Origin: a bacterium HR29
GTDB taxonomy: Bacteria > Chloroflexota > Dehalococcoidia > Tepidiformales > Tepidiformaceae
Reading direction: 5' to 3'
Length of the DNA: 64,000 bases
NCBI GenBank assembly: GCA_002898215.1
Contig: BEIF01000001.1
Coordinates: 1-64,000 of the forward strand
Part shown: in pieces, positions 3,974 through 47,790 of the stretch
Layout of the letters: each line of letters opens with the position of its first letter
Numbering within the stretch: the stretch's first letter is position 1
Made by a program: the position numbers and the translations under genes
Notes under the pieces: model-generated
Database searches by the model: none
The model's input: only the letters and a program-made list of their open reading frames with translations
What the model was told of the DNA's origin: nothing

Positions 3974-4870
3974 TCACCCGCTCGCCACGGGTACGTCGAG
4001 TTGGTGCTTCCGAACTTCCGCCATGACCCGTTCCCCGAGCGCCTCGTCTGGCTCGACGATCGGTAGTCGAGGCTTCCCGATCTCGAAGCCAAGCCGCCGG
4101 AGGATGTAGCGGATGGTGCTCGGGTTGCCGTTGGCGAAGCAGGCGTTCGTCAGCGGCACGAGGCGCCGATGGATGGCTGCCGCCTCGGCCACCTGCCCCG
4201 CGGTAACGAGCTCGAGCATCCGCCGAAGCTGCCCCGCGACGATGTGTCCGGTGACGCTGATGGCGCCGTACGCTCCCATGCACCAGAGCGGGAAGTTGTC
4301 GTTGTCGTTCCCACTCCAGATCTTGAACTCCGGCGCGGCCTCGATGAGCTGGGCGCTGTGAGCCAAATCGCCGTTCGCCTCCTTGTCACCGGCGACGTTC
4401 GGGAGTTCGGCGATGCGTAGGAGCGTCTCGACGGTCGCGTTCACGCCGGTTCGGCTCGGCACGTTGTAGACGATGACCGGGAGCGACGTGCTCTCGGCGA
4501 TGGCTCGGAAGTGCTGGTAGATGCCCTCCTGCGACGGGCGCAGGTAGTACGGCACCACCGCCAGGATCGCGTCGGCCCCGGCGCGCTCCGCGCGCTTGGC
4601 GAGCGCGACCGAATGGTGGGTATCGTTCGTCCCCGCGCCGGCCACGACGGTCGCGGAGTCTCCGAGCTCCTCTTTCACCTCTGCCCACAGCCGCTCCTTC
4701 TCGTCGTCGCTCAGGAGCGGTGCCTCGCCGGTCGTCCCCGTGACCACGACCCCCTCGTTGCCCGCGGCGATGAGGTGGCGCGCAAGCCTGCGCGCATGGG
4801 CGTAATCGACCGCGCCATCGGGCGTGTAGGGCGTCACCATCGCCGTCATCAACCGCGCCAGCGGACGCAT
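3974..4870 (-). CDS. dapA: 4-hydroxy-tetrahydrodipicolinate synthase
   Basis: Condenses pyruvate with aspartate semialdehyde in lysine/diaminopimelate synthesis. The 298-residue TIM-barrel protein keeps the GTTGE loop, the tyrosine of VIVYNVPSRTG, the arginine in that loop, and the Schiff-base lysine in AGDKEANGD. Length is typical. The start is ATG 4868-4870 behind GAGGAGAGAGCC; upstream in-frame sequence lacks family similarity. It lies 62 bp upstream of the RodZ/PASTA gene and 59 bp downstream of thiN, all on the same strand. Some barrel aldolases of this family act on other substrates, but the preserved residues and length support DapA. Confidence 0.9.
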   Translation of the reverse strand: MRPLARLMTAMVTPYTPDGAVDYAHARRLARHLIAAGNEGVVVTGTTGEAPLLSDDEKERLWAEVKEELGDSATVVAGAGTNDTHHSVALAKRAERAGADAILAVVPYYLRPSQEGIYQHFRAIAESTSLPVIVYNVPSRTGVNATVETLLRIAELPNVAGDKEANGDLAHSAQLIEAAPEFKIWSGNDNDNFPLWCMGAYGAISVTGHIVAGQLRRMLELVTAGQVAEAAAIHRRLVPLTNACFANGNPSTIRYILRRLGFEIGKPRLPIVEPDEALGERVMAEVRKHQLDVPVASG

Positions 4871-33135: not shown

Positions 33136-36100
33136 CTAGCCTTCGATGTTGTACCCCATCCGAAGGGTCGCCGCATCGTCGACCCGGCGGAGGCGCCACC
33201 ACGCCCAGGCCAAGGCGATGCCCGCTGCGAGTGCCAGCGTGGCGGCAGCCAAACCCGCGGCGCTCCAATCGAACACGAACCGCGCGGGGGGCTCGACGGG
33301 CTCTCCCCCCTCGTTGACGTTGAGGAAGCGGAGCAGGTGGCGGGAAAGGGCGCTGCCGATCCCGAAGCCGGCCGCCAGCCCGAAGGCCAGCACCAACGCG
33401 TACTCCACGCCAAGCATCGCCGTCACCTGCAACTGGGTGCATCCGAGGACCCGCAGCACGGCGAACTCCGTCCGGCGTCTCGCCACCGCCGCTCCGGCGC
33501 TCGCCGTGAGGCCTGCCGCCGCGACGAGGCCCGCCCCACCGAGGGCCAACGCGAACGCACCCTTCCCGCTCGCCGCCAGCAGCGGGTTCCGCTCGGCCCG
33601 CGCCACCGCCTCGGCCTGCACCGTCAGGCGCTGGAGCGAGAGCGGCGGCTGCGCCAGCCGGCGGAGGACCTCCCCACGTTCCGCCTCGCCCAGCCCCGGC
33701 GCAAGCTCCACCCACGCCTCCGTTGGAGCGAGCCTTCGGCCGCTCAGATCGAACGCGTCCGTCCACGCCCGCAGCCTTCCACGGTCGAGGACGAGCGCGG
33801 GGCCGTCCTCGGCGGGCAGCGTCGGGAAATGGGAGACGACCTCTCGCACTTCGAAGGGCACCACCGCCTGGCCGATGGCGAGCAGACCTCGGCCCCCTTT
33901 CCCGATCCCCGTCCGCTCGGTGAACGAAGCCGTGGCGATTGCGGGAAGGGGGATTGACACGTCCTGGATGAAGATCCCGCGCCGCTCCCCCGTCTGCCCC
34001 ACGCGGAAGCGGAAGACACCGACACGGCCCTCGCGGTCATCCGTGTTCCCGACTTCGAAGCGGTCGGCGTTCGGACGGGGACTGGGGAGCGTAGCCCACG
34101 GTACGCCTCCCTCGAACCCTTCGATGACGGTGAGGCTACCGTCGGCTCGAACGGCTCCCAGGTCGTCGAGGAGGAGCGGAGCGTCGCTGGCGTTGAACTG
34201 GTTCGGCGGCTCCGTCATCAGCAGGCCCACGACGTCGACCGGCGGTTCGAGCGGGTCCAGCCGCCCCGTGAGGTTCGCGCGCAGCTCTCGCCACCCGGTG
34301 GTGTCGAGCTTCCCCAGCTCGAGCAGAGCGTAGCGGCCCGCTCGGTCCCGGACGCGCGCCCAGAGGGTTACGCTCTCCCGCGTTGCGGTGCTGTTCACCC
34401 AGAGCGAGATGGCCACGGCATCGGACGGCAGCCGGATGCCGGGCAGGCTCGCCGGGCCGGCGATGGCCAGCATCAGCTCCCGCAGGCTGCGCTCCGCGAA
34501 GTCGCTTCGGAACCAGAGAAGGTCGCTCGCTGCTGCCGGGTCGAGGGCGAGCACGTGCACCTGGGGTCCACCGGCGCCCACGGTCGCCAGCGAATGGGTG
34601 GCTCGGTACACCAGCGTGGCGGCGGTGAGCCCTTCCGTAGCGGAGAGCGCGGACTCGGCTTCCTCCCAACGCGTGCCAACTCCTGCCGCGACAGGCAGCT
34701 GGCCCGAGACCGGCACCGGGGAAGCGAACAGCGCCCGATCGCGGCGGGATTGGTCCACCGTGGGGCCGTAGCTTGCGGCGAAGGCCGCGACCGTCGCCGC
34801 CATGAGGACCAGCACTGCCAGGCGGGCGTGCGGTGCCGGCTCGCGCTCTATCCGCCAAAGGGCGACAGCCGCGGCCGGCCGCCATCCGGTGAGCCATCGA
34901 GCGGCCCGCGCTGCGAAGGGGTAGAGCCGCAGGGAGAGCGCTCCGGCGGCCAGGACCGCGATCGCAGGGGCCAGGAGCGCCGACGGGTCCGTCTCGACGG
35001 CCCCGGAACCGGCGAGAGCGAACGCCGAACCCTCCTGTTCCAGTTCCCAGACGAAGAGCGCGGCCACAACTGCGAAGGCGATGTCGACGTAGTACCGCTG
35101 GAAGGCCGGGGGCGTGGGCCGGGCGGCGCCGCGGCGCTCCCGTGCGGCGCGCCGAGCGGTGAGCGCCGTCGGGAGCGCCGCGGCCACAGCGCCTGCGGCC
35201 GCGCCCCCGGCCGAGAGGACGTACGAGAGGCCCGTCGGCCGCGCCTCGAGCAGCTCGCCGGCGGGCACCATGGGCGTCAGCCCCAGGAGGGCAACCGCGC
35301 CGGTGGCGAGGAGCGGCCCCGCCAGGAAGGCCGGGACGGCCGTCCAGGCCGCGGTGAGCAGCTCCAGCCCCAACACCTGACCGATGCTCGCGCCACGGGC
35401 GCGCAGCAGCGCGGTCTCCTCGGCGTTCCGCTCCGCTGCAGCCGCGCCCACGGTGAACACGAAGAAGAGCGCGATGGCCGAGACTTCGGCGAGGAGGACG
35501 AGCAGCGGCCCTTCGGCTACCGAGGAGGCTTTCTCCGCCCGTGCGATAGCCTCGCCCAATGGGGCGACCACGAAGCCGCCCAGCGGGTCGAGCTCCGTGC
35601 GGAGAGCTTCGATCTCCTCCCGGGCACGCGCGGCCGTCTCGGACCCGACACGGCTCGGGTCGGCGAAGCCGATGAAGCTCGCCTCAGCGAGGTACCCGGG
35701 CCACCACTCCCGGTAGGACCGAAGGTACCGTTCGGGGGGCACGAAAGCTGGGACCACCGGTCCTGTGTCGGGAAGGGGCTGGCCCAGGGCGAAGTGGACG
35801 GCGGTCCCTCGGACCCAGAAGGGGTCCTCCGGGTCGCGGGGCTCGACAAGGGCCGCCACGACGGCCTCGCGGACGAACCGCAGCGAGGCGCTCGGTGTGC
35901 AGGGCGGAGGCGGTGGGCGGTCAAGGCTCGGGATGATGCGGGCGCAGGTGTCGAAATCCTCCGCCAGCCGCAGACGATCGCCCGTGCCGAGCCCGAGCGC
36001 TGCCGCTGCCTCGCGGCTGATGACCAGCGGCAGCAGCGCCCCGCCATCGTCACCACGGGGCAGCTCCCCTTCGACAACGGTGACGTGCTCTTCGTAGCCT

Positions 36101-36504
36101 CCGATTGCCCGCAGCTCGAGGACGGGAGGGCGTTCGCTGCTCAGCCCCGCCCCCTCGAGAAAGAGACGGGGACCCCGGAAGGCGGTCGTCTCCTCGCTCA
36201 GGAGCCATCCCAGGCGGTCACGCGCTCGCTGCGCGATGGCTGCGTACCGTTCGCCGCCCCCAGGCTGGGCCGGTCGGGCCGAGCCGGCAATCACCTCGAT
36301 GCCCGGCGCATCGCTCACCTCCTCGCGGACGGCGAACTCGATGCCTGCCGACCGAAGCGCCCGGGCGTAGATTGGGCCGACGGCCAGCAGGGTGCAGGTG
36401 ACGGTCATCCCCAGGGCCAGCAGCGCGAGTTGGGTACCCTTCGCGGGCGTTCGCCGAACGGCGAGCGGCCACAAGCCTGCCAACCAGCGGAGGGTGCCAA
36501 CCAT
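33136..36504 (-). CDS. FtsX/MacB-type ABC transporter permease (1122 residues)
   Basis: A long permease with an N-terminal helix (LALLALGMTVTCTLLAVGPIYA), a large exported domain (about 45-330), three helices of an FtsX unit (ALFFVFTVGAAAAERNAEETALLRARGASI), further helices around 385-590, a second exported domain (about 600-960), and a terminal FtsX unit (VARRRTEFAVLRVLGCTQLQVTAMLGVEY). Such proteins work with a LolD/MacB-type ATPase to move lipoproteins or peptides, or to transmit force, rather than translocating through the membrane (family knowledge). No ATPase is on this strand. Two lie behind the divergent partner gene. Start ATG 36502-36504. Confidence 0.85.
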   Translation of the reverse strand: MVGTLRWLAGLWPLAVRRTPAKGTQLALLALGMTVTCTLLAVGPIYARALRSAGIEFAVREEVSDAPGIEVIAGSARPAQPGGGERYAAIAQRARDRLGWLLSEETTAFRGPRLFLEGAGLSSERPPVLELRAIGGYEEHVTVVEGELPRGDDGGALLPLVISREAAAALGLGTGDRLRLAEDFDTCARIIPSLDRPPPPPCTPSASLRFVREAVVAALVEPRDPEDPFWVRGTAVHFALGQPLPDTGPVVPAFVPPERYLRSYREWWPGYLAEASFIGFADPSRVGSETAARAREEIEALRTELDPLGGFVVAPLGEAIARAEKASSVAEGPLLVLLAEVSAIALFFVFTVGAAAAERNAEETALLRARGASIGQVLGLELLTAAWTAVPAFLAGPLLATGAVALLGLTPMVPAGELLEARPTGLSYVLSAGGAAAGAVAAALPTALTARRAARERRGAARPTPPAFQRYYVDIAFAVVAALFVWELEQEGSAFALAGSGAVETDPSALLAPAIAVLAAGALSLRLYPFAARAARWLTGWRPAAAVALWRIEREPAPHARLAVLVLMAATVAAFAASYGPTVDQSRRDRALFASPVPVSGQLPVAAGVGTRWEEAESALSATEGLTAATLVYRATHSLATVGAGGPQVHVLALDPAAASDLLWFRSDFAERSLRELMLAIAGPASLPGIRLPSDAVAISLWVNSTATRESVTLWARVRDRAGRYALLELGKLDTTGWRELRANLTGRLDPLEPPVDVVGLLMTEPPNQFNASDAPLLLDDLGAVRADGSLTVIEGFEGGVPWATLPSPRPNADRFEVGNTDDREGRVGVFRFRVGQTGERRGIFIQDVSIPLPAIATASFTERTGIGKGGRGLLAIGQAVVPFEVREVVSHFPTLPAEDGPALVLDRGRLRAWTDAFDLSGRRLAPTEAWVELAPGLGEAERGEVLRRLAQPPLSLQRLTVQAEAVARAERNPLLAASGKGAFALALGGAGLVAAAGLTASAGAAVARRRTEFAVLRVLGCTQLQVTAMLGVEYALVLAFGLAAGFGIGSALSRHLLRFLNVNEGGEPVEPPARFVFDWSAAGLAAATLALAAGIALAWAWWRLRRVDDAATLRMGYNIEG

Positions 36505-36588
36505 GGCAGTCGCAGCCTAGCGAAAGAGGGGCCGGTCGCGAACTCCCCCGGTGTGGCCGCCGGTCGTGTACGCTCCCCCCGAGGCGCG
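36505..36588. promoter_or_regulatory. Divergent promoter region between the two permease genes
   Basis: The 84-bp gap must hold promoters for both directions. TGTACGCT on the plus strand and CGCTAGGCT on the minus strand contain TANNNT boxes near the two starts. Neither has a clear -35, so the assignment is positional. Confidence 0.35.
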
Positions 36589-39500
36589 ATGGCTCCTCCG
36601 TTCTTCGCTTTCCTCGTGCGTCGGATGCGGGCCCACGCCCGCCTCGAGGCGCTCGTTGCGGCCGGCGCACTCGCTGCGGCGGCGCTGATGGCCGCCGTGT
36701 TCGTGTACGCCGACGCCGTCCGGGACCTCGGCCTCGCGTACGCCCTCGGCCAACACCCCGCCGAGGCCCTCGACGTCACGGTGTACAGCTCGAGCCAGCG
36801 TCTTACCCCGAGCGACTACGCCGTTCGGGAGGAGGAGACCCGCCGCCAGCTCCGCTCCGCCCTCGGCGGGGTCGCCTCCGAGTACCTCCGGTACGGCCGG
36901 ACCGCCACCTTCTTCCTCACGCCGCCAGGGGCGCCTGTGCCCCAGGACGACGATCGTCCCCGGGCGCATTTCCAGTTCTTCGACGGTCTCGAGGCTCGGG
37001 TGCGGGTGCTTGCCGGCCGCCCGCCGAAGGTGGCGTCGCCCGCTGCTCAGGGTGCGCCCGTCGTCGAAGTTTGGGTGAGCAGCCAGGCGGCGCAGCAGCT
37101 CGACATCACCGTTGGCGACCGCTTCGACCTGCACCCCTTCTGGGCTCTCGACGTGGAGCCGGTCCACGTGGAGGTCGTCGGCGTCTTCGAACCAGTGGAT
37201 CCTGCCGACCGGGCCTGGCGAAGCCGCGAGGAGCGACTCGCTGTCACCTCCACCCGCTGGCCCACCTACCCCTTCTTCGTTCCCGAGGCGACCGTCACCG
37301 GTGCGCTGGTGGCGTACCTCCCCAGCATCGACGGCGCGTTCGAAACGATCGCTGTCGTCGACACCGCTGCCATCGACAGCCGGAACGCGCCCGGCCTCGC
37401 GGACCGCCTCCGGGCCCTCGCCGCCAACCTCCCCCGTGCGGTGCCTCGCACGCAGGTCGATACGGAACTTCCCGCGGCCATCGAGCTCTACCGGACGAAG
37501 CTCTTCTTCACCCGCCTGCCGCTCTTCGCCCTCGTCGTTCAGATCCTCGGCATCGTCCTCCTCTACCTGGTGCTCGTGTCGAGCCTGCTTGCCGACCGGC
37601 GGGCTGACGAGTGGGCGCTCCTCCAGAGCCGCGGCGCCTCGCCCCGGCACGTGCTCCTCCTCGCGGGGGCTGAGGCGGCCCTCATCGCCCTCCCGGCGGC
37701 GCTCCTCGGGCCGCCGGCGGCGGCCGCTGGCACGGCGTTGCTCGGCTACACGCCGGCCTTCCGGTCCCTTTCCGGCGGCAGCGCGCTCGAGGTCACGCTT
37801 TCCGCCGAGGCCTGGGGCATGGCCCTCCTCGGCGCGGCCGTGGCTGCCGCCGCCATCGCCGTCCCGGCCGCGCGGTCCGGGCGGCGGAGCCTCGTGCAGC
37901 TCCGCCAAGCGGCCGCGCGGCCGCCGCAGCAGCCCGCGTTCCTCCGCTACTACCTCGATGTGGGCGTGCTGGCGATCGCTGCCGCCGCTGCCTACCAGCT
38001 CCGCGCCGAGGGGTCGCTCGCCCGCGAGCGGCTCCTTGGCGGCGCTGCCGCCGATCCGGTCCTGCTGGCCGCGCCGAGCCTCTTCATGCTCGCCGTCGGC
38101 CTCGCCGACCTGCGCCTCCTCCCCCTCGCCCTGCGTGCGGCCGCTGGCGTCGCCCGGTTCGCGGGCGGGGTCGCGCTGCCCCTCGCACTCTGGCAGGTGG
38201 TACGGCGCCCCTTGCACCACAGCCGGCTCATGCTGCTCCTCATGCTCGCGACCGCGGTGGGCGTCTTCGCCGCCGGCTTCCGCGCCACGCTCGAGCGGAG
38301 CTACGACGACCGCGCAGCCTACGAAGCCGCCGCGCCGGCCCGTGTGGTCGGCCTGCGCCCGGAACTGGGCGTCGGGCCCGATTCCGTCGTCGGTGCCGCC
38401 GCGGTGGCGCTCTCCCTCCGCCCGGAAGAGATCATGCCCGCCATCCGCGCGGACGCCTCGTACGCGCTCGGTCGGTTCCACTACGCCGACCTGACCGTGC
38501 TGGGGCTGGTGCCCGAAGCGGCCCGTGAGCTCGCGTTCTGGCGTTCCGATTTCGCCTCCCGTTCCCTCGCCTCCCTCATGGGCGAGCTGCGGGCGGCACG
38601 AGTCGAGTCGGTGGCGGGCCTTCCCATCCCCGCGGACGCCGTGTGCCTCGGCCTTCGCGCGAAGCTTCCTCCGGAGCTTCCTCGAGCCCGCCTAGGAGTC
38701 CGCCTCCGCTCGCCGGACGCGCGTGCCTGGGCGCTCGAGGCGATACCCGTGGGGTCGGCCGATGCCGACGGCTGGCAGCTCTTCGTCGTCCCGGTCTCCT
38801 TCGAGTGCACCGGGCCCGAATACTGGCGTGCCGTCCGCACCTCGCCACCCGACGCTGCCCCTCTCCTCCTCGACGCCGTCTATCTCCGCCCCGGAACGGT
38901 GCTCCAGGCGCCCCTTGCCGTGGCGTGGTACGTCGACGAGATCCTCGCCGGTGGCCGTCTCCCCGACACCCCCGGTCTCTGGGAGGCTGCAGTCATCGAG
39001 TCCTTCGAACGCCTCGAAATGTACGAGCCGATCGGCGGCGTTTCGTCCGCGGTCGACCCGGGGTCCATCGCCGCCGCCACGCCGGCGGGGGGCCACGGTC
39101 GGGCGGTGCTTGTCAGGGCGCGCATGGGGCCAGGGGGGACCCCGATATCCGGGCTCCGGCCCCGCCAGGAGGCCGCGCTCCCGGTCCTCGCCTCCTCGGC
39201 CTTTCTCGGGACGTCCCGGCTGCGTGTGGGCGACGAGTTCGAACTCTTCCTCAACGCCCAAGTGGTCCGCGCGCGGATCGTCGGCAGCTTCCGCCTCTTC
39301 CCGGGCTACCGTCCCGAGGACGACCCTCCCTTGCTCGTCACCGACCTCGCGACGCTGCGGGTGCTGGCTAGCCGACTGCCCGTGCTTGCGGACGTGCCCG
39401 TCCCGAACGAGCTCTGGCTCCACAGGGAGCCGCCGCAGGCTGTCGGAGAGGCGCCCGGAATCCGAGCCGAGTCCCTCCTCCGCCGGAGTGAGCTCCGCGC

Positions 39501-39957
39501 GGCGGCCGAATCCGACCCGCTCGTCGCCGCGAGCTGGGAGGGCATCCTCTTCCTCTCCTTCGCCTCGGTGCTCGGCCTCACCGCCATCGGCTTCGCTGCC
39601 TATGCCTACCTTGCGGCCGAGCGCCGGGCGTTCGAATTCGCCGTCTTGCGGACCATCGGGCTCTCACCGGCGCAGGTGTTCGTCACCCTCTTCTGGGAGC
39701 ACGCCGTCGTCATCGCGACCGGCCTGGCCGTGGGAACCGCGCTCGGCTTCCCCCTGGGCCGGCTCATGGTGGAGTACCTCGCCTTTACCGAGACGGGCGA
39801 AGCGGTGGTCCCGCCTCTCATCGCGGAGATTCGCTGGCAGGCGGTCGCCGCTCTCTACGCCGTCGTCGCCGCCGTGTTCTTGGGTACGATGGTGGCGCTC
39901 GCCGCTTTGTATGCGCGTCTCGCCCTCCACCGCACCCTGCGTTTGGGCGAGGCGTAG
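36589..39957 (+). CDS. FtsX/MacB-type ABC transporter permease, head-to-head partner (1122 residues)
   Basis: Same length and layout as the divergent permease: N-terminal helix (LEALVAAGALAAAALMAAVFVY), exported domain, FtsX unit (VVQILGIVLLYLVLVSSLLADRRADEWALLQSRG), a middle helix block with PAFLRYYLDVGVLAI (compare PAFQRYYVDIAFAVV in the partner), a second exported domain and a final FtsX unit (AERRAFEFAVLRTIGLSPAQVF). Both proteins have the AFWRSDFASRSL/LWFRSDFAERSL motif, so they arose by duplication. They may form a heterodimer served by the two downstream ATPases (inference). Start ATG 36589-36591; the open frame extends upstream only antisense to the partner. Confidence 0.87.
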   Translation: MAPPFFAFLVRRMRAHARLEALVAAGALAAAALMAAVFVYADAVRDLGLAYALGQHPAEALDVTVYSSSQRLTPSDYAVREEETRRQLRSALGGVASEYLRYGRTATFFLTPPGAPVPQDDDRPRAHFQFFDGLEARVRVLAGRPPKVASPAAQGAPVVEVWVSSQAAQQLDITVGDRFDLHPFWALDVEPVHVEVVGVFEPVDPADRAWRSREERLAVTSTRWPTYPFFVPEATVTGALVAYLPSIDGAFETIAVVDTAAIDSRNAPGLADRLRALAANLPRAVPRTQVDTELPAAIELYRTKLFFTRLPLFALVVQILGIVLLYLVLVSSLLADRRADEWALLQSRGASPRHVLLLAGAEAALIALPAALLGPPAAAAGTALLGYTPAFRSLSGGSALEVTLSAEAWGMALLGAAVAAAAIAVPAARSGRRSLVQLRQAAARPPQQPAFLRYYLDVGVLAIAAAAAYQLRAEGSLARERLLGGAAADPVLLAAPSLFMLAVGLADLRLLPLALRAAAGVARFAGGVALPLALWQVVRRPLHHSRLMLLLMLATAVGVFAAGFRATLERSYDDRAAYEAAAPARVVGLRPELGVGPDSVVGAAAVALSLRPEEIMPAIRADASYALGRFHYADLTVLGLVPEAARELAFWRSDFASRSLASLMGELRAARVESVAGLPIPADAVCLGLRAKLPPELPRARLGVRLRSPDARAWALEAIPVGSADADGWQLFVVPVSFECTGPEYWRAVRTSPPDAAPLLLDAVYLRPGTVLQAPLAVAWYVDEILAGGRLPDTPGLWEAAVIESFERLEMYEPIGGVSSAVDPGSIAAATPAGGHGRAVLVRARMGPGGTPISGLRPRQEAALPVLASSAFLGTSRLRVGDEFELFLNAQVVRARIVGSFRLFPGYRPEDDPPLLVTDLATLRVLASRLPVLADVPVPNELWLHREPPQAVGEAPGIRAESLLRRSELRAAAESDPLVAASWEGILFLSFASVLGLTAIGFAAYAYLAAERRAFEFAVLRTIGLSPAQVFVTLFWEHAVVIATGLAVGTALGFPLGRLMVEYLAFTETGEAVVPPLIAEIRWQAVAALYAVVAAVFLGTMVALAALYARLALHRTLRLGEA

Positions 39958-39979
39958 TCCCGAACGGGAGGGCAGCGCT

Positions 39980-40870
39980 CTGAGACCGTCCGGCCCCGCG
40001 CCCTACGTCCGCTGCGAGGACGTGTTCAAGATCTACAAGGTCGCGGACATCGAGGTCGTCGCGCTCCGTGGCCTCGACCTGCGCGTCCGCCGCGGCGAGC
40101 TGCTGGCTCTCGTCGGTGCTTCGGGCTCAGGGAAATCCACCCTCCTGAACATCCTCGCCGGACTCGACCAGCCCAGTGCCGGTCGGGTCTACGTCGGCGA
40201 GCGCGATCTGGCCGCTCTCACCCCCGAAGAGCTGGTGGAGTACCGCCGCCGGCAAGTGGGCATGGTGTGGCAGGAGACGGCTCGGAACCTCGTTCCCTAC
40301 CTCGATGCTCGTGAGAACGTCGCGCTCCCGCTCATCCTCGACGGAAAGCCAGCTGGCGTGGCCCGGCGGCGTGCCGGCGAGCTGCTCGAACTCGTCGGGC
40401 TCGCCGCGCGCGCCCGTCACCGCCCCGCGGAGCTCTCCGGCGGCGAGCAGCAGCGCGTCGCCATCGCCGTTGCCCTCGCCAACGAGCCGTCGCTCCTTCT
40501 CGCCGATGAGCCCACGGGCGAGCTGGATGCCATCGCTGCCGACGCCGTGTTCGACACCTTCGCCCGCGTCAACCGGGAGCTGGGCACCACCATCCTCGTC
40601 GTCACCCACGACCCGGACATCGCTGGCCGGGTCGACCGCGTCGTGGGCATTCGCGATGGCCGCACGAGCTACGAGCTCATCCGTCGCCGCCCCTCGCCCG
40701 GCTCCCGTGCGCCCACCGTTCACGAGGAGTACGTCCTCGTCGATGCTCACGGCCGTCTCCAGCTCCCCCGGGAGGTCCTCGATGCGCTGGACATCCGGGA
40801 GCGGGTGCGGGTGCTGCTCGGCGAGGGGTACATCGCCGTCCAGCCTCCTCCACCGGACTCGGGGTCGTAG
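39980..40870 (+). CDS. LolD/MacB-type ABC ATPase with C-terminal AbrB-like domain
   Basis: A 296-residue ATPase. Walker A is [12 protein letters not shown], the Q-loop [10 protein letters not shown], the signature [15 protein letters not shown], Walker [13 protein letters not shown], and the H-loop VTHDPDIAG. After about residue 245 comes [20 protein letters not shown] followed by [17 protein letters not shown], which has the GR-x-x-x-P pattern of an AbrB/SpoVT swapped-hairpin domain, rare on such ATPases. Start choice: no ATG, GTG or TTG fits before the conserved [12 protein letters not shown] stretch. CTG 39980-39982 has a GGGAGGG site 7 nt upstream. GTG 40022 would cut into the first strand. 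Its gene follows the permease by 22 bp. Confidence 0.85.
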
Positions 40871-40872
40871 GG

Positions 40873-41715
40873 ATGCCGGGCGTTCCGGTCGAAGTGCGCG
40901 ATGTCACCCGGCGCTTCCTCCGCGGCGGGGAGGAGGTGTGGGCCCTGCGGGGCGTCTCCCTGCGAGTGGAACCAGGCGAGTTCCTCGCGCTCATCGGCCG
41001 CTCCGGCTCTGGCAAGACGACGCTCCTCAACCTCATCGCCGGCCTCGATCGGCCCACCAGCGGTGAAGTGGAGGTCGGCGGTGCGCGGGTCGACCGGATG
41101 TCGGAACGGGAACGCACCCGATACCGGCGGAGGGTCGTCGGCTTCGTGTTCCAGTCCTTCGCCCTCCTCCCACTCCTGTCCGCGTCGGAGAACGTCGAGC
41201 TGCCCCTCCGCATCGCGGGCTGGCCTGCTCGGGCTCGCTCCGAACGCGCCCGGCAACTTCTCGCCCTCGTCGGCCTGGCCAAGCGCGCCCATCACCGGCC
41301 CTACGAGCTTTCGGGCGGCGAGCAACAGCGGGTTGCCATCGCGCGCGCGCTCGCCGTTCAGCCTTCCCTTCTCCTGGCCGACGAGCCCACCGGCGAGCTC
41401 GATTCCGTGACGGCGATGGAGATCTTCCAGCTACTCCGCGATGTCGCACGCAGCGAAGGGGTCACGGTCATCGTTTGCACGCATGATCGATTGGTGGCCG
41501 AATACGCCGGCAGGATCGAGGAGCTCCGGGACGGCCGCCTCGCGCCGCCGGCGGAACGGGACGTGTGGCAGCGGTGGCAGGCCCGAGGCGCGCCGCCCCG
41601 CATGCCTGGGCTCCGCCCCGCGCCGGTGGCGCCTGCCCTGGAGCCTCCACCTTCGTCCGAACCCAGCGAGGAGGACATCAGCCGATGGGCGCCGCCCGAA
41701 CGCCGGCAGCGGTAA
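40873..41715 (+). CDS. LolD/MacB-type ABC ATPase
   Basis: A 280-residue ATPase with Walker [17 protein letters not shown]-loop [12 protein letters not shown], signature [15 protein letters not shown], Walker [14 protein letters not shown] and H-loop CTHDRL. A Pro-rich tail of about 55 residues follows the fold. It begins 2 bp after the first ATPase, and the permease-ATPase-ATPase order suggests one exporter or mechanotransmission complex with two ATPases. Its last 31 bp overlap the IMPase gene. Confidence 0.9.
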
Positions 41716-42602
41716 CCCTTCCCTCCTCGGCGCTCGCTGCTGCACAGCGTCTCGGCGCCGAAGAGCTCGCCGCCCTCGAGGCTGGCGCGGTCCGCATCTC
41801 CCAGCGGGCGGCGGAGATCATCGCCGCGGCTGCCTCCCGGGAGGTGAGCATCGAGTACAAGCGCCAAGGGACGCGCGGGTCGGCTCCCGTGAATCCAGTC
41901 ACCGAAATCGACCAGGAGGTGGAGGCCGAGGCCCGCGCCCTCGTCGCAGCGGAATTTCCCGGCCACGCCTTCCTCGGTGAGGAGGGCGCGGAGCCTGGTA
42001 CGTCCGAGGGCTTCCTCTGGGTCGTCGACCCCCTCGACGGAACCACGAACTTCACCGCGGGGTTCCCGCTCTACGCCGCTGCCGCCGCCTGTCTGCTCGA
42101 CGGGGTGCCGGTTGCGGGGGCGGTGTGGTGCTCCGTCACGCCGGAGCTGCGACCCGGCGTCTACCATGCCAGGATTGGCGGCCCTTTCTCGCTCGACGGC
42201 AACCCTGCGGCGGTGCGCACTGCCCCTCCGCGCCCACTGGCGGCCGCGCCCGGCGGCGCACCCGGTCGAACGCGATGGTGGGACCACCGCGTGACCGGGT
42301 GCGCCGCCGTCGAATGCGCCTACGTCGCCGCGGGCGTGTTCCAGGCCGCGGTCTTTTCCGGGCTTCGCGTGTGGGACGTGGCGGCCGGCGTCGTCCTCGC
42401 CTGGGCGGCGGGTCGGGGCGTCTGGCTCCGCGACCGCACCGGCTGGGTGCCGTTCGAACGGTTCGAGCCAGCCCCGGAGCGCCGCGGCGAGCCGCCGACG
42501 CTCCGGGGCTGGCGCCGGACGCTGTTGCTCGCGACGCCCGAGGCCCGCGAACGGCTCGCCCCAGCTCGGCGGCTGCCGTTGCCACGGCTGTTCCGCCGCT
42601 GA
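41685..42602 (+). CDS. Inositol monophosphatase-family protein
   Basis: A 305-residue Mg-dependent phosphatase of the IMPase/FBPase/CysQ superfamily. Ligands are in NPVTEIDQEVE, FLGEEGAE, WVVDPLDGTTNFTAGFP and the late LRVWDVAAGVVLAWAAG. CysQ, FBPase or inositol phosphatase activity cannot be decided from sequence. The start is ATG 41685-41687 with GAGGAGG upstream, inside the 3' end of the ATPase gene; translational coupling is likely. The C-terminal 40 residues are Arg/Pro-rich and unconserved. Confidence 0.87.
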   Translation: MGAARTPAAVTLPSSALAAAQRLGAEELAALEAGAVRISQRAAEIIAAAASREVSIEYKRQGTRGSAPVNPVTEIDQEVEAEARALVAAEFPGHAFLGEEGAEPGTSEGFLWVVDPLDGTTNFTAGFPLYAAAAACLLDGVPVAGAVWCSVTPELRPGVYHARIGGPFSLDGNPAAVRTAPPRPLAAAPGGAPGRTRWWDHRVTGCAAVECAYVAAGVFQAAVFSGLRVWDVAAGVVLAWAAGRGVWLRDRTGWVPFERFEPAPERRGEPPTLRGWRRTLLLATPEARERLAPARRLPLPRLFRR

Positions 42603-42603
42603 A

Positions 42604-43224
42604 TCACCCTTCCTTCGCAGCCAGGCCCGCCCGTTCCGCCGGCGCCGCTTCGAGCGCGTGCCGAAGCTTGCGCAGTGCCCGGGCCTGGCGCGACTTCACG
42701 GCGTCGACCGTCGTCCCGAGGGCAGCGGCCGTCTCGTGCGCGGAGAGCCCGTGGACGAACCGTAGGACGACCACCTCGGCGTCGGCGCGCGGAAGCCTGG
42801 CGATGGCCCTCGCCAGATCGAGGAGTTCCGGGTCTCGCTCTCTCGCGGCCTGTTCCACCACGTCGAGGCGGAGTACCGGAGGCTGGCGGAAGAGACGCCG
42901 CCGGTGCGATGACGTCAGGTGGCGCGCGATTCCGAAGAGCCACGCTCGCGGAGGGAGCCCGCGGTCCTCGAAGGCCTCCGCGTGCTTCCACGCCTCCTCG
43001 AACGTCCGCGACACGAGGTCTTCCGCCTCCTCCGGCGAACCGACCCGGGCGATGACGTACCGATAGATGGCCGGCGCCTCCCGTTCGAAGAGGTGCGTCC
43101 AGGCAATCGGGTCCCGGTTCCGGAGCGCCTCCACTGCCGGGCTCGGCGTCCACTCGGCCGACTGCGAGGCGCCGATGGCCTCCGCCAGCCGCAGGAAGGC
43201 GCCGCTCGCGAACCCGGCCATCAC
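42604..43224 (-). CDS. ECF-family RNA polymerase sigma factor
   Basis: A 206-residue sigma-70 family protein. Region 2 is IAWTHLFEREAPAIYRYV with VGSPEEAEDLVSRTFEEAW and PRAWLFGIARH; region 4 is LPRADAEVVVLRFVHGLSAHE and TTVDAVKSRQARALRKLRH. There is no region 1 or 3. The start is GTG 43222-43224, overlapping the stop of the preceding gene (GTGA), with ATG 43219 right behind. It is the distal gene of a run that includes a likely anti-sigma factor and redox membrane proteins, and may drive that run (inference). Confidence 0.9.
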   Translation of the reverse strand: MMAGFASGAFLRLAEAIGASQSAEWTPSPAVEALRNRDPIAWTHLFEREAPAIYRYVIARVGSPEEAEDLVSRTFEEAWKHAEAFEDRGLPPRAWLFGIARHLTSSHRRRLFRQPPVLRLDVVEQAARERDPELLDLARAIARLPRADAEVVVLRFVHGLSAHETAAALGTTVDAVKSRQARALRKLRHALEAAPAERAGLAAKEG

Positions 43225-43814
43225 TCGGGCCTCCGGTCGTCGCCCGGCTCCGGTGTTCGGTCCCGGTCGCCGCCGCTGATGCCTGCACCTCGCCCGCGCT
43301 GGCCATCGTCCTCCTCGTCCTCCGGCGTGGGGTCGGGAGTCGGCTCTGCCACAGCGGGGGTCGGAGTTGCCGTCGACGGCGCGACGGTCGGCGACGGAGT
43401 CGTGGCCGCCTCGTCCGACCCGGCACCGTTTCCCGGGCGGAGATTGCGTACGGCGTCCACCGCGAACGTTCCGACGCGCGCCGCGGCATCCCATGGCGTC
43501 GTGCCTGCCGCGAGACTCCCGCCCGAGAAGGCGATCGCCGCCGCTGCCGCCCCGAGCGCCACCCGCTGGACGAGGGGCCGCGGCCGGGGGCCGAGTCCGA
43601 GCCAGGCGGCGAGCGGTCCGAGCCCGCCTTCGGACCCTCGGACTCGCTCCTCGAAGCGTCTTCGCATGCGCGCGATCTGCGCCGGGGTCGCCGTTGGCAG
43701 CGGGAGCTCCCTCGTGCGGCGGGCTACGCGTACCAGGGCCATCAGCTCGGGGTCCGGTGGGTGGCGAGCGCTCGTCGTCAGCGCTTCGTGCAGCCGCTGG
43801 GCGAAGTCGTCCAT
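43221..43814 (-). CDS. Putative anti-sigma factor, single-pass membrane protein
   Basis: A 197-residue protein with a cytoplasmic N-terminus (about 1-85, helical and charged; ARMRRRFEERVRG), one hydrophobic segment (about 90-112; VALGAAAAAIAFSGGSLAAG), and an exported Thr/Pro/Glu/Asp-rich tail. The layout resembles DUF5667-type proteins encoded beside ECF sigma genes. A zinc-binding HxxxCxxC motif is absent, so it is not a ZAS-type anti-sigma. The assignment depends on its 4-nt overlap with the sigma gene. Here it precedes the sigma gene, whereas the reverse order is more common. Confidence 0.6.
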   Translation of the reverse strand: MDDFAQRLHEALTTSARHPPDPELMALVRVARRTRELPLPTATPAQIARMRRRFEERVRGSEGGLGPLAAWLGLGPRPRPLVQRVALGAAAAAIAFSGGSLAAGTTPWDAAARVGTFAVDAVRNLRPGNGAGSDEAATTPSPTVAPSTATPTPAVAEPTPDPTPEDEEDDGQRGRGAGISGGDRDRTPEPGDDRRPE

Positions 43815-43815
43815 C

Positions 43816-44469
43816 TCATCCCCGCACGGGTGCGACTGCGCTGCGGCGCGGCCGGCGATAGGTGAGCCTTACCGCCAGCGCCCCCGCCACCGCCGCTGCT
43901 CCAGCAAGATACACACCCTGGACCCACCCGAGCATCGTGTCGCTGCCGATGAGCACGCCGTGCACGAAGGCGCCCCCGAAAGCGGCGATGGAGGTGAGGT
44001 GGATGAGGCGCCAGAGTCGCATGCCGATCTGGCGCCGAATCCAGAACGTCGCCGTAGCCAGCGCGAACAGGTACAACGTCAGCGTCCCCAGGCCCGAGAG
44101 CATCGGCTCGTAGGAGGCTGCGAAGGGTACGGCGAGGCTCGGAAGGTCGAAGTCGGTGTACCCGTCGAACAGCAGTGCCAGGGCATGCGCCAGCGCGAGG
44201 GCCAGTCCGGAGACGCCGAGGGCCTGATGGATGGCCAGGAGCCGGGCGCGGCTCACCAACCCGTCGCCGATGGCGGAGGACATCGTGGCCCCGACTGCCA
44301 GCGAGGCAGCGAGGGCGAGATACGAAGCGAGGCCGGCCGCGCGCGAGACGTACCATGCCTCATGCCCGCTCACGCCGCCGAACTCCTCCATCAGGGGTCT
44401 GCCAACGACCCAGCCGGCGACCATGCCTGCCGCCCCGGCTGCGAAGGCGAAATACCATCCCGACCGCAT
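43816..44469 (-). CDS. Ferric reductase-like transmembrane protein
   Basis: A 217-residue membrane protein with about six helices of the ferric reductase/MsrQ type. Paired histidines that could hold heme b are in LLAIHQALG, ALALAHALALL, WRLIHLTSIAAFG and GAFVHGVLIG. There is no FAD/NAD(P)H domain, so electrons must come from another protein. It has a glycine-rich first helix (FAAGAAGMVAGWVVG). It ends 1 bp before the anti-sigma-like gene, and apbE is upstream in the same direction. A membrane electron-transfer step is likely (inference). Confidence 0.78.
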   Translation of the reverse strand: MRSGWYFAFAAGAAGMVAGWVVGRPLMEEFGGVSGHEAWYVSRAAGLASYLALAASLAVGATMSSAIGDGLVSRARLLAIHQALGVSGLALALAHALALLFDGYTDFDLPSLAVPFAASYEPMLSGLGTLTLYLFALATATFWIRRQIGMRLWRLIHLTSIAAFGGAFVHGVLIGSDTMLGWVQGVYLAGAAAVAGALAVRLTYRRPRRSAVAPVRG

Positions 44470-44478
44470 ACGAGCCCC

Positions 44479-44757
44479 TCAGGAAGCGCGGCTGCGCCGC
44501 GCGCGGGGCAGCGGAGCCGCTTGGGCTGGCGAAGTGGCCTGCTGGCCGACCGGGGTGGGCACAATGGCCGCCGGCGCGCCGCCTGCTGCGTCCGCCGTCG
44601 CTGCCTCCTGGAGCCCGGTCTGGACTGCCAGCGTCGTTTCGCGCTCTCCCCCTCTCGCGACCGCGATGAGCATCGCCCCGAAGGCCGCTCCGGTCAGCGA
44701 GGCGGCGATGACTTTATCGGCCGCGAAGCGGTCGCCCTTCGGCTTCTTCTGCTTCAT
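44479..44757 (-). CDS. Small single-pass membrane protein
   Basis: A 92-residue protein with a basic N-terminus (MKQKKPKGDRF), one transmembrane helix (about 16-36; VIAASLTGAAFGAMLIAVA) and an Ala/Pro/Gln-rich exported tail ending in RARRSRAS. SLTGAA is only loosely like an ApbE flavinylation motif (DxxTGAT/S) and lacks the Asp and the final Thr/Ser, so it is not claimed as one. It lies between the acidic exported protein and the ferric-reductase-like gene. Unknown function. Confidence 0.6.
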   Translation of the reverse strand: MKQKKPKGDRFAADKVIAASLTGAAFGAMLIAVARGGERETTLAVQTGLQEAATADAAGGAPAAIVPTPVGQQATSPAQAAPLPRARRSRAS

Positions 44758-44795
44758 TCGTCGTCCTCCCGGCCATCCCGTCTCCGGTCGCGCTC

Positions 44796-45152
44796 TCAGT
44801 GCTCGTCTCGGCGCTCGTCGTCCTCATGGTCGTCTTGGTCTTCGTGCTCGTCGTCATCCTCACGGTCGTCGCCGTCCTCCTGTTCGTCGTCGTCCTCGTG
44901 GCCGCGCTCCTCCCAGGTGCGGGCGCCGTCCTCCGCCAACGCGACGGAGAGGTCCGCACCCGAGCCTGGCGCTGCCACAGCATTTGCGACGCCATCCCCT
45001 GCCGCTATGGCACTGGTGCCCTCGACGACTGTCGTGGTTAGCTGCGGGGTGTCCTCGTCCCGGTTCGCGAGGGCGGCGAAGCTCACGCCGATCACCATGG
45101 CCGAGAGCGCCGCCGCAGCCGCGGCGGCAGCAAGCGAGAGACGGCGGTTCAT
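44796..45152 (-). CDS. Exported protein with an Asp/Glu/His-rich tail
   Basis: A 118-residue protein with an N-terminal hydrophobic segment (LSLAAAAAAAALSAMVIGV), a short linker, and a C-terminal stretch of about 45 residues made almost only of Asp, Glu and His with a few Arg and Gln. Such a tail would bind divalent or trivalent cations (inference). It lies in a run with a ferric-reductase-like protein and apbE, so iron or other metal binding at the cell surface is plausible. Start ATG 45150-45152 with GGAGG upstream. Confidence 0.65.
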   Translation of the reverse strand: MNRRLSLAAAAAAAALSAMVIGVSFAALANRDEDTPQLTTTVVEGTSAIAAGDGVANAVAAPGSGADLSVALAEDGARTWEERGHEDDDEQEDGDDREDDDEHEDQDDHEDDERRDEH

Positions 45153-45248
45153 CGGCAGGTCCTCCATGCGTTGGCTTCTGTGTTCCTCTTCACACATCGC
45201 TCGGGAGGGACGGAACGGGTCGCGGCTGCCGCGGCGTTGCAGGGCTCT

Positions 45249-46103
45249 TTACCGGCCCTTTGCGAAGATGCCCGTTCGCTCCGCAGTGCCGTCGGCTGTG
45301 ACCGCGAGAATCCCGTCCACAGCGTGCTGCGCACGGCGTAGAGTCTCCGGCCCCCCGATGAGAATCGCCTTAGACCACACTTCGGCCCACAGGCAGCTCG
45401 CAGCCGCGACGGTCACCTGGACGTAGGGTCCCTCGGCTGGAAGCCCCGTACGGGGGTCGATGATGTGGTGGGCCCAACGAGCGTCCCTCGTGCGCCACCG
45501 TCTGCGCAGCAGGGAGGACGTCGCCAATCCCCCGACGACGATGCCTTCCCAGGCGAGCATACTCCCGGGTGCTTCGACTCCCGCCCGCCAACCTCCGAGG
45601 CCCTGCGCCTCTTCGCCGATGGCGCGGAGGTCGCCCCCGGCGTTCACGAGGCCGGCAAGCCCGTCTTCGCTGAGGAGCTCCGCAGCGCGGTCGACGGTCC
45701 ATCCCTTGGCGAGCCCGCCCAGGTCCAGGCGGCCGGCCCGGAGCCGGACCCGCGTCTCGCTCAGCTCGATCGCGTCACCCGGATTCGGGACCGGCCGCGG
45801 CTCGAGGGACCCTCGGGGCCCCTCCAGCCGTTCGAAGCTGTCGACATATCCGGCAGCCTCCAGCGCGTCGCGGACCAGCGGGTTCACGAGCCCTTCGGTG
45901 GATTCCCAGGCGGCGATGGCCGCTCGAACCACTTCGGCCAGAATCCAGTCGTCGACGACCTCTCCCCGGTTGAGTCGCTCCAGTGCGCTCTCCGCTCGGA
46001 AACGCGAAAGCCGAGCCTCCACCGTGCCGAACCAGGCTCGGACCGATGCGAAGGCAGCTACGGGGCGATCCGCCGCGCGGACGACGACGTCCACCTCCGT
46101 GCC
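45249..46103 (-). CDS. apbE: FAD:protein FMN transferase
   Basis: Transfers FMN from FAD to a Thr/Ser of exported proteins. The 284-residue call starts with MGTEVDVVV. Family motifs are RLDLGGLAKGWTVDRAAELL, LVNAGGDLRAIG, HHIIDPRTGLPAEG, and a C-terminal SKAILIGG. No FMN-binding acceptor domain was found in the window, so its substrate is elsewhere. The start is uncertain: ATG 46101-46103 lies inside the usual conserved AMGT motif, and no ATG/GTG/TTG is available between it and the end of the upstream gene at 46135. A non-canonical start there is possible. Confidence 0.88.
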   Translation of the reverse strand, partial: GTEVDVVVRAADRPVAAFASVRAWFGTVEARLSRFRAESALERLNRGEVVDDWILAEVVRAAIAAWESTEGLVNPLVRDALEAAGYVDSFERLEGPRGSLEPRPVPNPGDAIELSETRVRLRAGRLDLGGLAKGWTVDRAAELLSEDGLAGLVNAGGDLRAIGEEAQGLGGWRAGVEAPGSMLAWEGIVVGGLATSSLLRRRWRTRDARWAHHIIDPRTGLPAEGPYVQVTVAAASCLWAEVWSKAILIGGPETLRRAQHAVDGILAVTADGTAERTGIFAKGR

Positions 46104-46134
46104 CATGGCCGCGAACGAGTCCTGCCAGAGCCGT

Positions 46135-47160: not shown

Positions 47161-47790
47161 TCACCACCGGTCCCAGTGGACGATCTCCTGTACGGGTCGC
47201 CGGCTCACGGGCCCGAAGCGGCCCATCGGCCATCCCACCGGGATCATGCAGAACGGCTCCACGTTCTCGGGGAGGCCGAGAACGGCCTTCGCAGCCGGCC
47301 TGTCGCTGAAGACGAGCGTCGTGGGCGTTGCCCCCAGGCCGAGTGCCCGCGCCGCGAGTAGGAGATTCTGGACACCGGGCCAGATCGAGCCGCCCGCGTT
47401 CGCCCCTGCGGCGAAAGTGTCCGGGGGTGGGGCGAGGAACTCCAGGCAGGCGATGATGAGCGCGGGGATCTCCGCCATGTGTTCGGCCTGCCAGAGGACC
47501 GCCTTCAGCATCCGCTCCCGCTTTTCGCGCGGCTGGTGGGGGAGCTCCGGAATGCGCTGCTCTTGGATATAGCGCTCGACGCCCTTCCGGTTGAGCTCGG
47601 CCAAGCGCTCCTTCTGAGCCCGATCGCGGACGATGATCCAGCGCGCGTTCTGCAGGTTCGAGCCCGAGGGCGCCTGGTTCGCCGCATCGATGAGCCGTAG
47701 GAGGAGCTCCTCCGGCACCGGGTCGGGCTTCAGCCGGCGCATCGCCCGGCAGGTGTACATCACCTCGAACAGCTTCGGCTCGTCGGCCAA
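47161..47790 (-). CDS. Nitroreductase-family flavoprotein
   Basis: A 209-residue FMN-dependent reductase: N-terminal TCRAMRRLKPDPVPEELL, APSGSNLQNARWIIV (FMN phosphate loop), GGSIWPGVQNLLLAARALGL and a C-terminal VGWPMGRFGPVSRRP. Length and motifs are those of the NfsB/BluB-type fold; the substrate is unknown. Confidence 0.85.
   Translation of the reverse strand: MADEPKLFEVMYTCRAMRRLKPDPVPEELLLRLIDAANQAPSGSNLQNARWIIVRDRAQKERLAELNRKGVERYIQEQRIPELPHQPREKRERMLKAVLWQAEHMAEIPALIIACLEFLAPPPDTFAAGANAGGSIWPGVQNLLLAARALGLGATPTTLVFSDRPAAKAVLGLPENVEPFCMIPVGWPMGRFGPVSRRPVQEIVHWDRW

Follow-up and report, generated by a model that had tools for sequence, protein, structure and literature searches.

The stretch analysed here (the window) comprises 64,000 nucleotides of bacterium HR29 (Chloroflexota; contig BEIF01000001.1), and our subject is a cluster of six genes on its minus strand that combines a predicted flavin mononucleotide (FMN) transferase with a membrane heme protein. 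In the direction of transcription, the cluster consists of apbE, coding for the FMN transferase (45249-46106; PF02424, E 1.5e-44); a gene for an exported acidic protein, assigned from its sequence and its counterparts in relatives, with an Asp/Glu/His tail (44796-45152); a gene for a single-pass membrane protein of 92 residues that ends in RRSRAS (44479-44757; hereafter the tail protein); and genes for a ferric reductase/MsrQ-like heme protein of 217 residues (43816-44469; PF01794, E 6.9e-8), a membrane anti-sigma-like protein (43221-43814) and an extracytoplasmic function (ECF) sigma factor (42604-43221; PF04542, E 2.3e-15; PF04545). The initial annotation had described six genes on one strand with tiny gaps. 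The coordinates agree with this, except that 96 nt separate apbE from the acidic gene; the other intergenic distances range from small overlaps up to 38 nt. Relatives repeat the order apbE - acidic - small - heme - anti-sigma - sigma, completely or in part. The presence of the six genes is confirmed, and the cluster is conserved.

The heme protein has six long helices in its AlphaFold2 (AF2) model (pLDDT 89), and four histidines (81, 95, 157 and 170) are invariant in 20 aligned heme proteins (alignment A1). The FRD/NOX/STEAP heme proteins likewise have six helices and two His pairs for heme. The top Foldseek matches were STEAP2, SpNOX, STEAP1 and cytochrome b561, with a probability near 1 and a TM score of about 0.5, and none of the matches had an E value below 0.001. 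PF01794 was matched and no FAD/NAD domain was, which confirms the earlier description of a heme protein lacking a flavin domain. In the MsrQ-like flavinylation systems, as outlined by Meheust et al. (2021; PMC8238504), a PF01794 six-helix, two-heme protein is likewise clustered with apbE. Such systems have, typically but not universally, a gene for an FMN-binding domain, whereas here the tail protein is present instead and the HR29 genome has no PF04205 match. By the predicted composition of its products, the cluster is an ApbE-linked MsrQ-like system without the typical FMN_bind carrier.

It had been proposed that the flavin carrier is not encoded here and should be sought elsewhere in the genome by way of FMN-binding domains. 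When the HR29 genome was searched, no match to FMN_bind (PF04205), DUF2271, DUF3570, NqrB/RnfD or Flavodoxin_4 was obtained. FMN_red was considered as a carrier and dropped: there was one partial match, and no [ST]GA[ST] in nearby open reading frames (ORFs) of at least 100 residues. In a survey of 99 genomes, HR29 included, the heme protein was found in 32, ApbE in 33 and FMN_bind in 13. Within the window's own family (f1, 38 genomes), 26 genomes have the heme protein; ApbE was detected in 23 of these and in 0 of the remaining 12 (Fisher p 2e-7, not corrected for kinship). The initial annotation had reckoned with a lack of co-occurrence in related genomes as grounds for abandoning the grouping, and these counts point the other way. 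FMN_bind was found in five of the 38 f1 genomes, in four of which (G001, G015, G016 and G022) it is a neighbour of ApbE on the same contig.

The tail protein matched no family in Pfam or NCBIfam. In f1 its N-terminus is short and basic; a single helix follows, then a linker rich in Ala, Pro and Thr, which spans 39 to 207 residues in the 55 proteins measured, and the C-terminus is fixed. We took the closest ORF upstream that contains a hydrophobic stretch, regardless of its end, and by this rule all 42 f1 ORFs upstream of the heme gene ended in [ST][RK][GASQ]S. The last residue was Ser in 42/42, preceded by Gly (28), Ala (8) or Ser (6), before that by Arg (36) or Lys (6), and before that by Ser (34) or Thr (8). 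Such an end was found in only one of 721 other membrane-like ORFs of the same loci. Three f1 heme-protein matches had no such ORF; two of them lie at contig edges (L041 and L101), and the third (L111) is a second fragment. Four further f1 loci contain five heme proteins, with the motif in 5/5, so that in total 47/47 tails, the window's included, end in [ST]-[RK]-[GAS]-S; these come from related genomes and paralogues and hence are not independent cases. Outside f1 but within the class, the motif was found in L076, L077, L079, L080 and L083, and variants in L050 and L078 (TRQS) and in L082 (TRSSR); the fragment L108 has no motif end. In the phylum, 196 of 400 genomes matched the heme-protein alignment. 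Twenty loci were fetched: 13 tails end in [ST][RK]xS, some with an extra basic residue (TRSSR), six are QSG-type variants (TTQSGKVVP, TRQSGARP, SSQSGAP and TRQSGG among them), and in L163 no tail was found. A second string in the window's small protein, LTGAAFGA, was dropped as a target site; it falls inside the helix and lacks conservation in relatives.

The published target motif of ApbE is given as D-x-x-[ST]-G-A-[ST], with the FMN on the last residue, and seven residues are described as sufficient, best at a terminus (PMC12052999). The window tail, which ends in RRSRAS, does not have this motif. A scan of named genomes with an ApbE alignment gave, as the best 80 loci of 586 confirmed, mostly Chloroflexota, plus Bacillota, Actinomycetota and one metagenome-assembled genome (MAG) of Isosphaeraceae. 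In these 80 loci an automatic rule picked the membrane ORF that precedes apbE or the heme gene. A motif-type end was present in 56 of the 71 picks, nine loci having no such ORF: [ST][RK]xS in 26, [ST]xx[ST] in 13, [ST]xxS plus one or two residues in 8, [ST]G[AG][ST] in 7 and DxxTG[AG][ST] in 2. As a background, all end classes pooled occur in 157 of 1864 ORFs of at least 100 residues from the loci, a set that still includes the tail proteins. Some ends stand between the two motifs or reach the known one: DTTTGGT* in three Bacillaceae, Neobacillus among them (L170, L175 and L178), DTSSGAS* in an Actinomycetales MAG (L205), RTGAS* in Paenibacillus sediminis (L233), and TGGS* and SGGS* in several Chloroflexota. 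Judged by sequence, these bridge forms reach the published ApbE motif, and they matter most. In L205 we also observed an exported acidic protein (3-782) with an internal DTTTGASG, near the ApbE motif, which may be a second flavinylation site.

The window's R-x-R-x-S end resembles the target sites of basic-directed kinases, and the tail Ser could be a phosphorylation site unrelated to ApbE. This is very improbable, given the non-basic ends DTTTGGT, TGGS and SGGS at the same gene position and a tail predicted to lie outside. A more serious alternative gives the tail protein a structural role as a subunit of the heme protein, with its C-terminus serving as a docking or assembly signal while ApbE modifies another, unrecognised protein; the tail gene immediately precedes the heme gene, one fusion of the two is seen, and some f1 genomes have both genes with no ApbE found. 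We regard this as unlikely, because the tails of other phyla grade into the ApbE motif and the HR29 genome gave no match to FMN_bind, DUF2271, DUF3570, NqrB/RnfD or Flavodoxin_4. The most likely carrier, to judge from its position, the motif continuum, the co-occurrence and the absence of any other known target, is thus the tail protein, and the earlier view that no carrier is encoded in the cluster probably does not hold. The operon, its conservation, the C-terminal motif, the bridge forms, the co-occurrence and the fusions described below were all read from sequence. On these grounds we consider it probable that the cluster encodes an ApbE-linked, MsrQ-like transmembrane electron-transfer unit whose flavin carrier is the extreme C-terminus of a single-pass protein. 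The proposed FMN site would be the last Ser of the tail protein (44482-44484, minus strand).

The window ApbE was modelled by AF2 with a pLDDT of 95 and matches 1vrm with a TM score of 0.86. Its Ser197 and His214, which are invariant in the 15 rows of alignment A3, correspond to Ser257 and His273 of FmnB; at the metal site, Glu242 stands where FmnB has Asp301, and Lys246 where it has Thr305, all of these correspondences being our own. FmnB Asp301 is reported to bind Mg2+, and Thr305 to contact phosphate or Mg2+ (PMC8906456). ApbEs linked to FMN_bind have Asp and Thr at these places (11/11 each). Those of the tail loci have Glu in 38/43 (Asp in 5) and Lys in 42/43, and, at positions 195-196 of the compared stretch, Arg in 41/43 followed by Trp in 42/43; the 43 include L081, L088, L089 and L093-L095, where apbE is apart from the heme gene. 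By these residues, the ApbEs of tail loci are a distinct subgroup. A pairing of the tail Arg/Lys with ApbE Lys246 was considered and dropped, since the Neobacillus ApbEs with a DTTTGGT tail share that Lys. No signal peptide was found at the N-terminus of the window ApbE. Hydrophobic N-termini were seen in 0/12, 1/16 and 0/18 ApbEs of the tail kind, in three samples drawn from the loci at hand, and in 4/11 of the FMN_bind kind, so that the tail kind looks cytoplasmic.

The tail itself is predicted to lie outside: by the charge rule (N-terminal flank more positive than C-terminal flank), this holds for 52 of 55 proteins. An ApbE without a signal peptide would also suit a tail that is flavinylated but stays in the cytoplasm, feeding the heme protein in place of the absent FAD domain. 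Such an arrangement seems quite improbable, because it runs against the charge distribution, against the seventh helix that precedes the tail in the L256 fusion, and against the heme protein of L228, which has an apparent NAD/2Fe-2S part of its own. If ApbE is cytoplasmic and the tail outside, FMN attachment would have to precede export.

Several observations weigh against the tail as the flavin carrier. The model is weakest at this junction between a cytoplasmic-looking ApbE and a tail predicted outside: either the FMN is already in place when the tail crosses the membrane, or one of the two localisations has been misread. The window tail has neither the Gly nor the Asp of the known ApbE motif, and a change of Gly to Ala alone is described as roughly halving flavinylation in a known target (PMC12052999). 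The Thr to Lys difference at the metal site might mean an altered or lost activity. ApbE is missing from three f1 genomes that have the heme protein (G005, G024 and G034, 72-81% complete), and in two more (G003 and G022) the sole ApbE listed scores like the FMN_bind-linked kind, so that the window's kind of ApbE is present in about 21 of 26. Finally, 15 of the 71 picks from the best 80 loci had no motif; 12 of these (L175, L177, L178, L180, L181, L190, L191, L203, L217, L221, L225 and L238) show a tail once all upstream ORFs are listed, the rule having picked another frame.

Gene fusions bring the parts together. In L256 the six-helix heme protein continues into a seventh helix and a tail ending in RTSRGS, and in L086 and L080 into a seventh helix and an acidic tail. 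The heme protein of L228 (Nocardia salmonicida) reads like one extended into an NAD-binding and 2Fe-2S part. From these fusions, the heme protein, the tail and the acidic region probably share a site of action, to which the cytosol supplies the electrons. The conserved gene order, the co-occurrence and the fusions support the earlier proposal of a regulated membrane electron-transfer system with ApbE. In L077, L079, L087 and L257 the heme protein runs on beyond another hydrophobic stretch into a long additional C-terminal part that does not resemble the acidic tails. The Asp/Glu/His tail of the exported protein could possibly bind a metal or another cation. Beside the tail gene of L195, from an Amycolatopsis MAG, the exported protein (4210-4665) is not acidic but Met-rich, ending in GMGMGMGMGGM, which would suit copper. 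In L082 (6984-7685) and L234 (4076-4564) the acidic protein is replaced by an exported protein that we take to be PepSY-like. The acidic, His-rich or Met-rich (L195) composition of the exported neighbours gives a hint that metal ions are the acceptor; metal reduction as the function of the cluster, which the initial annotation had suggested, is a guess.

The anti-sigma-like protein has one hydrophobic stretch, is encoded beside the sigma gene and is kept in relatives, and regions 2 and 4 were matched in the sigma factor. It matched no Pfam family and no known anti-sigma domain, and NCBIfam gave weak, irrelevant models alone. A candidate promoter for the ECF sigma factor, CGAC-N19-CGATGT, lies at 45194-45222 (minus strand), between apbE and the acidic gene. 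The motif, [CT]GAC-N19-CGATGT, was spotted by eye prior to counting; of 18 acidic genes examined, 11 are preceded by it, that of the window among them. In L031 the corresponding place reads CCATGT, and no motif was found in L039, L044, L045, L046, L048 and L114. A longer form of the pattern has the window site as its single perfect match in the HR29 genome. A search for the promoter motif, as proposed earlier, thus yielded one perfect site; the pattern is too loose to name a regulon, and that attempt was dropped: allowing two mismatches gave 129 sites in the genome, and the reversed pattern gave 48. Since the candidate promoter lies downstream of apbE, the sigma-driven unit probably excludes apbE and runs from the acidic gene through sigma. 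The doubt raised earlier, that apbE may be co-transcribed only with its upstream dehydrogenase neighbours, is partly upheld by this placement.

On its flanks, the cluster is bordered by an inositol-phosphatase-like gene on the opposite strand, which ends at 42602, and by a hydroxyacid dehydrogenase gene upstream of apbE. Two genes upstream of apbE is an ORF (47161-47790) whose product resembles nitroreductase-type flavoenzymes. The region 33136-41715 codes for two large membrane permeases and two ATPases, which, from their translations, we take to be like a MacB-type ABC export cluster.

The pieces can be put together as follows. ApbE would attach FMN to the final residue of the tail, Ser or Thr. 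Through the two b hemes of the heme protein, electrons would pass from the cytosolic side to this FMN which, swinging on its linker, would reduce an external acceptor, perhaps a metal ion bound to the acidic protein. Held back by the anti-sigma protein, the ECF sigma factor would turn on the acidic gene, the tail, the heme protein and itself, with apbE expressed separately.

Other non-FMN_bind targets of ApbE (DUF2271, DUF3570, Flavodoxin_4 and FMN_red) were also found through apbE neighbourhoods, and the FMN_red of L. lactis is modified on an unstructured C-terminal extension, as far as these are presented in PMC8238504 and PMC11334425. Those targets are folded domains with a [ST]GA[ST]-like motif, whereas the tail has no domain and its motif, [ST][RK][GAS]S, forms the very end of the chain. 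The cytosolic ApbE of Klebsiella pneumoniae, according to PMC12052999, has no signal peptide either, but it modifies a soluble cytosolic fumarate reductase and not a membrane tail predicted outside. The seven-residue flavin tag of the same source shows that a short terminal peptide is enough for ApbE; that tag is man-made, and the natural tail of Chloroflexota departs from its sequence. In the open-licence literature, by title or abstract, we did not find C-terminal tail substrates of ApbE described. A tail-type flavin carrier seems to be previously unrecognised and to recur in several bacterial phyla.

If so, a tail-only acceptor would give targets to part of the genomes that have ApbE and no known substrate, and would assign a function to the small, unannotated membrane genes that neighbour apbE in Chloroflexota, Bacillota, Actinomycetota and a planctomycete MAG; the tail would act as a naturally occurring, flavin-bearing swinging arm in electron transfer. 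More tentatively, and with somewhat more doubt than belief, the sequences may point to widespread domain-less flavoproteins, a "flavin on a leash", in which a cytoplasmic, Lys-type ApbE loads FMN on the last residue, the tail carries the flavin across the membrane, and the two-heme protein reduces it outside. In that case neither an FAD (flavin adenine dinucleotide) exporter nor an extracellular ApbE would be needed.

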